Part shown: positions 2,611-14,650 of the stretch, in pieces | How the letters are laid out: the number at the start of each line of letters is the position of its first letter | Numbering within the stretch: the first letter of the stretch is position 1 | Virus record (IMG/VR): IMGVR_UViG_3300050821_003229 | Location: 1 to 62,073 of that record | DNA length: 62,073 nt | DNA from: a virus | Direction: 5' to 3' (one strand) | Notes under the pieces: generated by a model | Databases searched by the model: none | Seen by the model: the letters and a program-made list of their open reading frames with translations, nothing else | Told to the model about the DNA's origin: nothing | Program-made: the position numbers and the translations under genes

Positions 2611-3036
2611 TTAACTCCATTTCTTCAAACTCAGGATGTAGGCATCGGTGGCGGCGAAGATGGCCTCGGTGGGGGTTGAGAAGGCGTTTAGCGATACGAA
2701 CGATCCTTCGTCGGTGTCATTAAATAGTCGAATGTTCCACAATGTCTTCCCGCCCCCTTTGTAGCTGCCTAAGCTAACACCCCAATTCTGCTCGGCTAGC
2801 TTCTCCAGGCAGCGAATCGCATGGACCTCGGTGAGCGGAGGTATGGGAATGTGATGAGACCCGAGAGCTTCGTATTCATGGGCAGTATAATCGAATCCGC
2901 ATTCTGCACAGTAGGAATGGCAAATTCTGACATCATTTCGAGTAGGTGGGTAATGCAGTTTACCTGCTGGGCAACAAACTCCCGGCGACCACGTTCCGAG
3001 CCATTGGTGAATTCGGGCGGTTGTTTCGTCATTCAT
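2611..3036 (-). CDS. hypothetical protein, possible phage ABA-sandwich type (141 aa)
   Basis: The N-terminal half has a Cys/His cluster (CC, CHSYCAEC) that could bind zinc. The C-terminal half ends in a helix starting FAATDAYILSLKKW, reminiscent of the short phage 'ABA sandwich' proteins that typically start with an hxxW helix. The assignment is tentative. It overlaps its upstream neighbour by a few bases, so it is translationally coupled. Confidence 0.5.
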   Translation of the reverse strand: MNDETTARIHQWLGTWSPGVCCPAGKLHYPPTRNDVRICHSYCAECGFDYTAHEYEALGSHHIPIPPLTEVHAIRCLEKLAEQNWGVSLGSYKGGGKTLWNIRLFNDTDEGSFVSLNAFSTPTEAIFAATDAYILSLKKWS

Positions 3037-3247
3037 TGCTGAGACTCATCATAAAGCCTATTTGGTAGCCATCCCTCAACATGCAGGTATAATCCCAGTC
3101 TCCGCCAACTGTCCTCACATAGGCGCAAGCGTTCTCTTTCAAATCAACTTGAGAAACGATATCGGGGCTCGTCGCGCGTCCTAGCCAGAACGCGGCTACA
3201 TAGCTAGCGAGTAACGCGGCCATTCCTGCGTGAATCAACCACCTCAT
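3029..3247 (-). CDS. single-TM protein (72 aa)
   Basis: An N-terminal hydrophobic segment (residues 3-24) acts as a signal anchor, followed by a soluble part with two cysteines. The start at 3247 has GGAGAA close upstream and overlaps the stop of the HTH gene. Function unknown. Confidence 0.55.
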   Translation of the reverse strand: MRWLIHAGMAALLASYVAAFWLGRATSPDIVSQVDLKENACAYVRTVGGDWDYTCMLRDGYQIGFMMSLSNE

Positions 3248-3417
3248 GGCTTCTCCTGGCCCCGTATCCACTCCTCGATGATGGCGCGAGAGAACCGCAG
3301 GTCGCTACCTAAGTACCAGTGGGGGATCCGCTTGGCCTTTACCAAGCGATACACCGTGCTTGGGTTGCAACGGAGATAGGCCGCGACTTCCTTCAGGACC
3401 ATTATAGGTTCGTTCAT
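3244..3417 (-). CDS. excisionase/MerR-type helix-turn-helix protein (57 aa)
   Basis: The whole protein is one winged-HTH module of the excisionase/HTH_17 type: LKEVAAYLRCNPSTVYRLVK, then KRIPHWYLGSDLRF and IIEEWIRG. Such proteins bind DNA as Xis factors or small regulators. The start at 3417 is chosen for the AGGAGAA before it. No integrase is present, so a regulatory role is more likely than excision. Confidence 0.75.
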   Translation of the reverse strand: MNEPIMVLKEVAAYLRCNPSTVYRLVKAKRIPHWYLGSDLRFSRAIIEEWIRGQEKP

Positions 3418-3480
3418 TTCTTCTCCTCCGACCGGACTGTCCATTTCTGCGCGTGATGAGTATGCGCGCCCCACTCGGCT

Positions 3481-3945
3481 TTATGGCGTTGGTGTGGGGG
3501 CGGAGTTTGGGTAGACCCACCCGCTACCGCTGGTCGAGTAGTAGGTACCCGTCACGGGGGTGGCCATGTAGTAGCTATTTGGCTGGGTCTCAATAGACTC
3601 GCAGCTATCATCCTTGACTACGATTTTGGCGAGCACCTTTGGGTCTGTTATGGTCGGTGCTGCGCATTGTTTCTCAGCGATCTGCATGTAGTCGCAGCTT
3701 TTCTTTGTCGTGCACGCCATATGCAAGCAGCCACCATCCGCAGTGTGGCAGCTAAATGTGCCCGAGAAGCCATCATTATCCTTCGCCCATTCACGGTCTA
3801 TTTGCTGTACGCTGGCGTCATGCGCCCAATGGTCTTGTTCAGATGGCGGCGCCAGCCCCTGGCAGCCCGAAAATCCCAGCCCAGCGACCACAATCGCCGC
3901 TCCTACTGGAACTCCTAGAAAGAACCGCTGTTTCGCTATTTTCAT
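3481..3945 (-). CDS. Cys-rich putative lipoprotein or exported protein (154 aa)
   Basis: The N-terminus is a signal sequence ending GLGFSGC, a plausible lipobox although Phe/Ser replace the usual Leu/Ala. The mature part has eight further cysteines, which fits export, and the C-terminus is Thr/Pro-rich. The start at 3945 follows AAGGAG; ATG 3972 with a GGGGGCGAG site is an alternative adding nine residues. Role unknown. Confidence 0.6.
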   Translation of the reverse strand: MKIAKQRFFLGVPVGAAIVVAGLGFSGCQGLAPPSEQDHWAHDASVQQIDREWAKDNDGFSGTFSCHTADGGCLHMACTTKKSCDYMQIAEKQCAAPTITDPKVLAKIVVKDDSCESIETQPNSYYMATPVTGTYYSTSGSGWVYPNSAPTPTP

Positions 3946-3968
3946 CCCTCTCTTCTCCTTAGCTTTTT

Positions 3969-4181
3969 TCATCTCGCCCCCCGCCATAGCCGGATTTCCC
4001 GAGCCTTCTCATGCCCGCGTAGGTGCCGCGTCCAGCTCCGCAGCCCGACGTGAGCCTCACACATGTTGCAGTAGATCGTTGGCGGTAGGTCGCGCCTGTC
4101 GGTACCGAAGACTTCATAGATAACCGCCGCTATCGCAATACCGATGGTGATTCCGATTGAGACGTATTCGCCGGGCGTCAA
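3969..4181 (-). CDS. membrane-anchored single zinc-finger protein (70 aa)
   Basis: Starts at TTG 4181 behind AAAGGAG. One hydrophobic span (about residues 7-26) is followed by a C-x2-C...H-x3-H pattern (CNMCEAH...RHLRGH) and a basic tail. A membrane-tethered C2H2-like finger is unusual in a phage. It could tether DNA or a host protein at the membrane (inference). Confidence 0.55.
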   Translation of the reverse strand: MTPGEYVSIGITIGIAIAAVIYEVFGTDRRDLPPTIYCNMCEAHVGLRSWTRHLRGHEKAREIRLWRGAR

Positions 4182-4194
4182 AATATTATCTCCT

Positions 4195-4395
4195 TTAGAG
4201 ACTTCTTGGGGCGTGACTGAAATTCACAGATAAGGCTCCTACGAGACTTAAGAACCCTAGCCAAATACTGAGTACTGCGTAAATTCCCCCAACCACGACA
4301 TACCAACTAGGAGCCCCATGGGGGAGCGCAGCTAACACGCAGCCCCCGCCGAACATCACAACAGCCGAGCCCAAGGTCCATAGTGTGTGCATCAT
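4195..4395 (-). CDS. two-TM small membrane protein (66 aa)
   Basis: Two hydrophobic spans, about residues 5-25 and 31-53, with almost no soluble part. It overlaps the stop of the upstream gene (ATGA). Typical of small early phage membrane proteins; not identifiable. Confidence 0.5.
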   Translation of the reverse strand: MMHTLWTLGSAVVMFGGGCVLAALPHGAPSWYVVVGGIYAVLSIWLGFLSLVGALSVNFSHAPRSL

Positions 4396-4568
4396 TCTGA
4401 CTTCTGATCTTCGTCTAGTTGATACAGCCGCTCAATCTCAGCCACCGATTCACGGACACGGAAAGCGTAGCAGCCATACTCGACCTTCGTGCCTTTCCAG
4501 GTGTCCTTGGCCCAATCATAATCGGTTAAAGAAAGTGACCGGCCTGATCTATAAAGTGTGAGTATCAT
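4392..4568 (-). CDS. hypothetical protein (58 aa)
   Basis: The start at 4568 is preceded by AAGGAGACAAA. Small acidic protein with no Cys cluster or membrane span. Overlaps both neighbours by four bases, so it belongs to a tightly coupled operon. Confidence 0.5.
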   Translation of the reverse strand: MILTLYRSGRSLSLTDYDWAKDTWKGTKVEYGCYAFRVRESVAEIERLYQLDEDQKSE

Positions 4569-12863: not shown

Positions 12864-12924
12864 ACCGGAAGTATGTACTGTACAGGTTGCCCCATGACGC
12901 GCTCATCGCTTATAGTTCTGAAAG

Positions 12925-13027
12925 TCGGGATGGCGGGCTCTGCCCCCGCACGAACCGTTCTCCCTAAGAGCAAGGGCGGTTCACCGGATTCCAAGTCCGG
13001 CGCGTCTACTGATTTCGCCACATCCCG
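12925..13027 (-). tRNA. leucine-scaffold (class II) tRNA with UGG (Pro) anticodon
   Basis: The minus strand folds into a full cloverleaf with every stem paired. Acceptor is CGGGATG/CATCCCG, then U8 G9. The D-arm GCGAAATCAGTAGACGC is nearly identical to bacterial tRNA-Leu. The anticodon arm is CCGGA-CTTGGAA-TCCGG, so positions 34-36 read UGG. A 34-nt variable arm contains GAACCG/CGGTTC and CCCT/AGGG helices, and the T-stem is GCGGG/CCCGC. The discriminator is A, as in tRNA-Leu; no CCA is encoded. Oddities: T-loop GGCAGAG instead of TTCRANY, A in place of G18, and a variable arm far longer than normal. It lies antisense to the surrounding operon. Confidence 0.75.
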
Positions 13028-13214: not shown

Positions 13215-13289
13215 ATGCCCGGTCCGAAGCCCTATATTAAACAACCTAAAGACAAACAGAAGCGCCAGTGGCGCACGAGAGGAAAATGA
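13215..13289 (+). CDS. possible 24-aa basic peptide
   Basis: ATG 13215 to TGA 13289 encodes a very basic peptide (MPGPKPYIKQPKDKQKRQWR...). Its stop overlaps the next start (ATGA), which suggests coupling. The ribosome site is weak. Confidence 0.35.
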   Translation: MPGPKPYIKQPKDKQKRQWRTRGK

Positions 13290-13753
13290 CGCTACAGCAA
13301 CGGGCGATTGCCCTAGACGCGGCGCGCGTGGTTGGTGCCACGATGGACCGGCTGAAGAGCAAAGAGCGGACACAGCGGATTGCGACCCAGCGCCAGGAGT
13401 GGGTTTGGCTGATGCGGCGCGCAACAGGGATGAGTTATCCACAGATCGGGAAAGAAGTGGGGCGCGACCACTCGACGATTATTCACAGTTATAACCTAGT
13501 AGAGCAGCATTACAACAACGGAGCGCACGACCGCCTAGAGCGAGCCTTAGTGGAAGTTACCCCGCGCGTGCTTGATCCGCTGGGCGCGGAGTTTTGTAAC
13601 TTCGACCCGCTGCCGGTGAAAAGACGAACTCCTCCGCAAACCGAACTAGGCAAGTTGGTTTATGGTTTCGAGATCCAGCGAGAAGAATGTCAACGGCGAC
13701 TTGAAGCATTGAATATCGCCATAAACCGGCTGGGGGGAGCCGATGCGACGTGA
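13286..13753 (+). CDS. DnaA domain IV-like DNA-binding protein (155 aa)
   Basis: EWVWLMRRATGMSYPQIGKEVGRDHSTIIHSYNLVEQ (about residues 34-70) carries the DnaA box-binding signature, with an IG...GRDHSTIIH core. There is no AAA+ ATPase domain. A stand-alone DnaA-C module could occupy DnaA boxes at the phage origin or compete with host DnaA. The start at 13286 is chosen for AGAGGAAA before it. With the DnaT-like protein it suggests the phage recruits the host replisome. Confidence 0.75.
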   Translation: MTLQQRAIALDAARVVGATMDRLKSKERTQRIATQRQEWVWLMRRATGMSYPQIGKEVGRDHSTIIHSYNLVEQHYNNGAHDRLERALVEVTPRVLDPLGAEFCNFDPLPVKRRTPPQTELGKLVYGFEIQREECQRRLEALNIAINRLGGADAT

Positions 13754-14439: not shown

Positions 14440-14650
14440 TTGAGTCCTCGAAATTAGAGAATGTGCGGGTCAGGTCCGGTCAAAGCCGGGAAGCGAGTAA
14501 CCGAACCTGACCTCAGCCGCGAAGGTGAGGTGGTCGAAGAAGAGGGTTGTCCCCGTGGCCTAGCTCAGAGAATTTCCGAGCAAGCACGCCCTACGGCGTC
14601 GGTTCGGCTCACAGGGATGATTGTACAGTCATAATTCCTCACTTGAGCAT
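14440..14650. other. structured gene-free region with tRNA-like A and B boxes
   Basis: GTCAGGTCCGGT (14467-14478) pairs with ACCGAACCTGAC, followed by a CCTCA/TGAGG hairpin. Bases 14550-14617 resemble a tRNA: TCCCCGT/ACAGGGA ends with one mismatch, TAGCTCAG as A-box, a GCTC/GAGC D-type stem, ACGCC/GGCGT hairpin, and CGGTTCGGCTC as B-box. No T-arm closes, so it is not called as a tRNA. Possibly a degenerate tRNA or tRNA-like RNA. Confidence 0.45.

Follow-up and report, generated by a model that had tools for sequence, protein, structure and literature searches.

A class II, leucine-type tRNA gene with a UGG anticodon in a phage contig and its relatives near IS1595-family transposons

The tRNA gene and its surroundings in the phage contig

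The window, by which we mean the whole stretch of DNA analysed, is a 62-kb virus contig (62,073 nucleotides) whose terminase, portal and major head protein match phage families. A custom cloverleaf scanner, used with a score cut-off of at least 19, finds a single tRNA in these 62 kb (Table 1). The program cmscan, an Infernal check that had been proposed together with the original prediction, places the same gene above the gathering threshold of RF00005 (41.2 bits vs 29, E 2.5e-5), and the alignment covers positions 1-71 of the 71 in the model without truncation. ARAGORN, when run on the window, did not detect a tRNA at 13027-12925.

Table 1. Position and strand of the tRNA gene, its parts and the neighbouring terminal repeat in the window
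Feature	Position	Strand	Basis
Class II tRNA, leucine-type body, anticodon UGG, 103 nt	12925..13027	-	cmscan RF00005 and cloverleaf scan
D-arm GCGAAATCAGTAGACGC, with A14, A15, A18, G19 and A20a	13002..13018	-	sequence, parse
Anticodon loop CTTGGAA; UGG at 12993-12991	12989..12995	-	sequence, cmscan, cloverleaf parse
Variable arm, 34 nt	12950..12983	-	sequence, fold; same architecture in relatives
T-arm; aberrant loop GGCAGAG at 12944-12938	12933..12949	-	sequence, parse
Single IS1595-type terminal repeat CGGAAGTATGTACTGTAC, oriented inward and facing the tRNA	12866..12883	+	17/18 identical to the L249 and L242 ends

The acceptor (7/7), anticodon (5/5) and T (5/5) stems are completely paired, the acceptor/T-stem split is 7/5, and the D stem is formed by GCG and CGC. 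The variable arm comprises an outer 6-bp helix (GAACCG/CGGTTC), an inner hairpin (CCCT/AGGG) and a 3' bulge (AGAA), with U48 at its end. The T-loop contains G54, G55, C56, A57 and G58. The discriminator base, A73, is located at 12925, no CCA is encoded, and the first base pair is C1:G72. The minimum free energy fold is the cloverleaf, with an energy z-score of only -1.56; folding energy was discarded as evidence, the z-scores of ten family members being spread from +0.13 to -2.12. The class II, leucine-type body and UGG anticodon of the original prediction are borne out by both cmscan and the cloverleaf parse, and the perfect stems, leucine-type D-arm, A73, CTTGGAA loop and 34-nt variable arm described there are all present. 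That prediction did not give the strand of the gene, which is the minus strand. A similarity search of phage records with the window tRNA matched only its leucine-type 5' half, in 5 records.

The terminal repeat starts 41 nt past the 3' end of the tRNA and was spotted by eye after we had inspected the ends of another element (L127; L numbers are our labels for loci). It is the best terminal-repeat match in the window, with 14.4 bits by a position matrix, and 866 kb of control DNA contains 10 sites of at least 14 bits. When the 503 nt around it were dinucleotide-shuffled, 0 of 400 sequences scored above 14/18. No second end was found in the window, no target duplication is clear at the locus (only 7/8 near-matches), and the window contains no tblastn match to a transposase at E 1e-4 and no winged-helix gene by profile search. 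The locus L242 is arranged in the same way as the window, with an end followed by an opposite-strand tRNA and with no transposase. As for an empty site, L011, the phage with the closest terminase (66%), was compared over approximately 52.6 kb out of the 59 kb in its record and had no match to the window proteins encoded at 3.5-19.9 kb. The window tRNA is likely to be transposon cargo that was left behind, a point that the original prediction lacked, as it did the IS1595-type end.

Several other features of these two loci were recorded. Divergent from the tRNA, a gene at 13268-13753 encodes a small phage protein that has the C-terminal DNA-binding domain of DnaA (PF08299, E 1.2e-16) and for which we found no relatives in viral contigs. 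A DUF3800-IX RNA (RF02968, 48.8 bits vs 36.8) occupies 14546-14617 on the minus strand, at a distance of 1.5 kb from the tRNA. No DUF3800 Pfam match was obtained for ten window ORFs, of which five lie no more than about 2.5 kb from this RNA. Immediately next to the UGG tRNA of L242 (10683-10753, minus strand) lies an RNA resembling the end of tmRNA (27.5 bits, below gathering), with a TGCAAAT T-loop and a TTTGGA stretch.

Relatives of the tRNA and their association with IS1595-family transposons

A pattern that combined a leucine-type D-arm with a downstream UGG anticodon loop matched 9 stretches in viral contigs and 19 in the contigs of 84,980 species genomes, and a wider version matched 26 viral stretches. 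In viral contigs and bacterial genomes together, about 30 distinct leucine-type UGG tRNAs were found. We parsed 28 representatives after discarding intron-bearing look-alikes and broken copies and merging the duplicates of one lineage. Left out of these 28 rows were the broken L004 and L264, the imperfect L262, L006 with a shifted acceptor, L007 with an insertion in the anticodon loop, L257, which is not a tRNA, L096, in which a UGG loop sits in an incomplete cloverleaf, the group-I-intron look-alikes L009, L093, L094, L097, L098, L100, L109 and L271, as well as L130 (anticodon AGG, C33) and the later-found L277. The insertion in L007 (774-882) is a hairpin in the anticodon loop of a leucine-type tRNA. 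The ordinary class I tRNA-Pro(UGG) genes of L133, L188 and L199 were excluded from the counts. A14, A15, G19 and A20a, together with G or A at position 18, were preset by the search patterns and are informative only for members found otherwise, through a transposase or a terminal repeat.

The carriers are Acetobacteraceae, Rhodobacterales, Phenylobacterium, Sphingomonas, Rhodomicrobium, Acidiferrobacterales, Planctomycetota, Chloroflexi, Prevotella, one unplaced MAG and viral contigs; Sphingomonas sp. JC676 (L104) and Rhodomicrobium R_RK_3 (L108) are cultured carriers. Standard pairs account for 471 of the 476 stem pairs in the 28 members, with many pair types per position, and hence the structures are functional rather than copies in decay. 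The way the relatives' stems hold upholds the earlier view of the window gene as intact and not a pseudogene. Variable arms range from 14 to 46 nt and measure at least 28 nt in 17 of the 28. Searches of plasmids with the L108 tRNA and of phages with the L008 tRNA gave no match.

An IS1595 transposase, whole or as a remnant, lies no further than 1.6 kb from the tRNA in 14 of the 30 distinct UGG class II tRNAs, and 3 more adjoin a terminal repeat scoring at least 18 bits; in a control of 80 terminase loci (866 kb), a transposase or strong repeat was present in none. Among the rest, a winged-helix gene was recognized by profile in 4 and by eye only in 4, which leaves 5 of the 30, the window included, with no transposase, strong end or winged-helix gene. 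The neighbouring transposases contain PF12762 and PF12760 (domain search run for those of L101 and L092). Inverted terminal repeats enclose the tRNA and the transposase in the phage contigs L122 and L127 and in the elements L135, L129/L249, L128, L092 and L107, the L129/L249 element being flanked by an 8-bp target duplication. In L123 they enclose the tRNA and a transposase remnant, and in L248 a repeat is found on either side of the tRNA with no transposase.

An anticodon-blind search by transposase similarity, which gave no matches with one protein as query and succeeded with an alignment, yielded 80 viral loci. Five of them carry a leucine-type UGG tRNA, one a tRNA with AGG (L130, C33) and one a tRNA with GGA (L150); in the DNA examined, a leucine-type NGG tRNA is absent from 74 of the 80 and from all 30 alphaproteobacterial transposase loci. 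A scan for the terminal repeat found a UGG tRNA in 7 of 15 stretches, representing 3 lineages (L242, the L243 group and L249), and a scan for a second form of the repeat did so in 2 of 14 (L266 and L277). As two anticodon-blind searches recovered the association, the link between UGG tRNAs and IS1595 elements is independent of the search pattern. In a tree of 92 transposases, all 10 bearers of a UGG tRNA fall into one clade of 18 (support 88), in which the long-branch pair L225/L227 is also placed. The trait requires 6 changes on this tree vs 9.6 for shuffled labels, and none of 500 shuffles was as low. That the tRNA family is cargo of a mobile element is thus well supported.

In six loci (L091, L095, L102, L104 and the phages L277 and L266), homologous winged-helix genes immediately precede the tRNA and share its strand. 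The N-terminal part of the protein is helical and its C-terminal part a winged helix, with a basic linker in between, and the profile search for it covered all reading frames. In L277 an IS end is situated upstream of the winged-helix gene and in L266 a transposase beyond the tRNA, and the chromosomal and transposon settings are therefore those of one module. Homologues also occur at two IS1595 loci that have no tRNA (L217 and L148). The predicted model of the L102 protein contains a winged helix (pLDDT about 93 in the domain); in a structure search it came closest to Fur chains (E 2e-3), and no match had an E-value under 0.001. Unrelated or too distant proteins of like build are encoded upstream in L249, L099, L108 and L270, and one downstream of the tRNA in L002. 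The winged-helix label was given by eye, with no Pfam match, in L099, L108, L249 and L002 (the latter with weak matches only); the L270 protein matched DUF7669 at the cut-off. Vertical inheritance of the winged-helix gene was considered and rejected: the gene is rare, and a search of 149 Sphingomonadaceae and 99 Caulobacteraceae genomes recovered it from a single genome of each family, namely that of the query. In intact modules, the upstream winged-helix gene probably controls expression of the tRNA.

Also of note are further tRNAs and a protein at individual loci. An IS1595 element outside the main clade (L150, 5264-5347, minus strand) has a leucine-like class II tRNA with the serine anticodon GGA, and the second-repeat scan gave a GGA stretch from the same contig (L274). 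The leucine-type class II tRNA of L168 (5621-5702, minus strand) has the loop CTTTAAA, and with its UUA anticodon it would decode UAA, a stop codon. L142, a virus contig that bears IS1595, has at 1988-2080 a class II tRNA whose UAU anticodon recalls the UAU allo-tRNAs. Within the tRNA-bearing transposon of L127, positions 3002-4450 encode a Schlafen AlbA_2/RecG-C-like protein (PF04326, PF13749). The phage of L122 (G008), which carries a UGG element, also has two odd tRNA-like genes on the minus strand of its contig (39278-39380 and 39444-39535; 34.0 and 33.2 bits).

Charging of the tRNA and the meaning of CCN codons

The determinants of E. coli LeuRS are A73, A15-U48, G18G19, A20a, G18:U55, G19-C56 and U54:A58, and the enzyme does not read the anticodon (PMC9976931). 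Those of ProRS include, in the part of the same source used here, G35, G36, A37, A73, G72 and G15-C48. The LeuRS positions are nearly invariant in our family: A73 in 27/28, U48 in 28/28, C56 in 28/28, U54 in 27/28, U55 in 26/28 and A58 in 26/28. The Levitt pair is A15-U48 in 28/28 and G15-C48 in 0/28, where A15 was preset by the pattern in most members and U48 was not, and G72 occurs in 3/28. Because the family keeps the LeuRS set and lacks the ProRS Levitt pair, its likeliest product is a Leu-tRNA that would read proline codons; judging by sequence, members of the family are expected to be charged with leucine and to decode CCN.

The window copy has A73, A15-U48, G19-C56 and A20a of the E. 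coli tRNA-Leu set. At G18:U55 and U54:A58 it has A18, G55, G54 and G58 instead, and the leucine anticodon base A35 is missing, the anticodon being UGG. The residues A18/G55, G54 and G58 and the pair C1:G72 make charging by LeuRS uncertain in this copy, where it could be weak or could have shifted toward ProRS. The earlier proposal of charging by LeuRS therefore stands as far as the determinants kept in the family are concerned and is weakened for the window tRNA itself. A18 and G55 occur together in all three clean cases (the window, L108 and L277), whereas G55 is found in none of the 27 tRNAs with G18 (Fisher 2.2e-4, members counted regardless of kinship), and the imperfect L006 also fits this pairing. 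Such co-occurrence argues for a rebuilt contact, as had been predicted for the elbow, and not for decay.

This bears on the possibility that the window tRNA is a hitch-hiking relic, delivered by a transposon and now without use to the phage, to which we give appreciable weight while holding it to be somewhat improbable. The single IS end with no transposase, the lost T-loop and elbow positions and the visibly broken state of other copies (L004, L264, L262 and L006) are what a relic would look like. However, the window tRNA has standard pairs at all 17 positions of its acceptor, anticodon and T stems, and the recurrence of A18/G55 in L108 and L277 is unlike random decay.

An extra tRNA-Pro, charged with proline on a leucine-type scaffold, is an unlikely explanation. 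It would account for the presence in the window copy of all five of G35, G36, A37, A73 and G72, which are among the E. coli tRNA-Pro determinants in the part of PMC9976931 used here, and for the proline anticodon with a different first base (AGG) retained by L130. The Levitt pair and the scarcity of G72 in the family speak against it, and the window tRNA itself combines A15-U48 with a 34 nt arm where tRNA-Pro has G15-C48 and a short variable loop.

We are equally doubtful of a non-translational RNA, be it a decoy for tRNA nucleases, a ligand of the winged-helix protein or a regulator of transposition. The winged-helix gene adjoining the tRNA in six loci and the long variable arm of many members are consistent with such a role, and transposon-linked allo-tRNAs that fail in E. 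coli translation are described in the part of PMC7609411 drawn on here. Against it, the family retains anticodon residues GG35-36 and the tertiary contacts of functional tRNAs, while its stems covary.

The codons themselves were compared in two sets of genes. The window terminase has CCN at 0 of 32 conserved leucine columns, and both of its CCA codons at conserved columns (137 and 518) are at proline columns (75/78 and 76/79). In the terminase of this phage, CCA stands for proline. Among 94 transposase rows, the 12 that bear a tRNA, two duplicate pairs included, have no CCN at conserved leucine columns. Reassignment of CCA to leucine in phage or transposase genes, a role suggested in the original prediction and one that the anticodon and body combined would permit, is therefore ruled out for the terminase and transposases by the leucine-column and proline-column counts, and we regard it as exceedingly improbable.

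A possible mobile missense module and its relation to known tRNAs

The explanation that we favor, with fair but not high confidence, is that a passenger tRNA of an IS1595 group has been stranded in the phage. A group of IS1595-family transposons would carry the tRNA as a passenger gene; in the phage genome, the transposase and one end would have been lost and the tRNA would have remained. Its body would keep what E. coli LeuRS reads, so that family members would be charged with leucine despite the UGG anticodon and would deliver leucine at proline codons (CCN, chiefly CCA). In intact modules, the upstream winged-helix protein would control expression of the tRNA, and the whole unit would then be a mobile, regulated Pro-to-Leu missense module. 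The computations establish the structure, anticodon and conservation of the tRNA and its linkage to the transposase, the ends and the winged-helix gene; charging by LeuRS, decoding of CCN and regulation are inferred.

The closest parallels known to us differ in several respects. Allo-tRNAs (Mukai et al. 2017, as reviewed in PMC7609411) are bacterial class II tRNAs whose anticodon is at odds with their identity, as are the tRNAs described here. According to the part of PMC7609411 used, allo-tRNAs have 8/4 or 9/3 structures, are mostly serine-type and have diverse anticodons, whereas the present family is 7/5 and leucine-type, has a proline anticodon in nearly all members and is tied to one IS1595 clade. 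The yeast laboratory mistranslator tRNA-Ser(UGG) likewise combines class II structure, a proline anticodon and anticodon-independent charging, and its missense reading is toxic; as portrayed in the portion of PMC6827378 consulted, it is engineered, inserts serine and works in a eukaryote, whereas the present tRNA is natural, mobile and leucine-type. The portion of a review on mistranslating tRNAs that was available (PMC11415595) lists no leucine tRNA with a proline anticodon.

With other IS1595-family elements that have passenger genes, the elements described here share the PF12760 and PF12762 transposase, the inverted ends and the 8-bp duplication (L249). In the open literature searched, with subscription papers mostly outside its scope, we found no tRNA gene as an IS1595 passenger, no transposon-borne tRNA of this kind and no tRNA-Leu(UGG). 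The window gene resembles other phage-encoded tRNA genes in being the lone tRNA gene of its phage. However, in ordinary phage tRNAs the anticodon matches the body, whereas here it is mismatched and the gene is accompanied by an IS end.

Miscoding tRNAs are usually regarded as accidents or laboratory tools. We tentatively suggest that an IS1595 clade and the phages that capture its cargo may possess a tRNA that has a proline anticodon, is charged by LeuRS and is controlled by a winged-helix regulator, and that selection has kept in several bacterial phyla as a deliberate means of mistranslation, such as a toxin, a defence or a stress switch. A transposon group that conserves this chimera of a leucine body and a proline anticodon through wide divergence would make sense-codon mistranslation a mobile trait. 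Furthermore, lists of phage tRNAs may include mobile-element cargo that is unrelated to the codon use of the phage.
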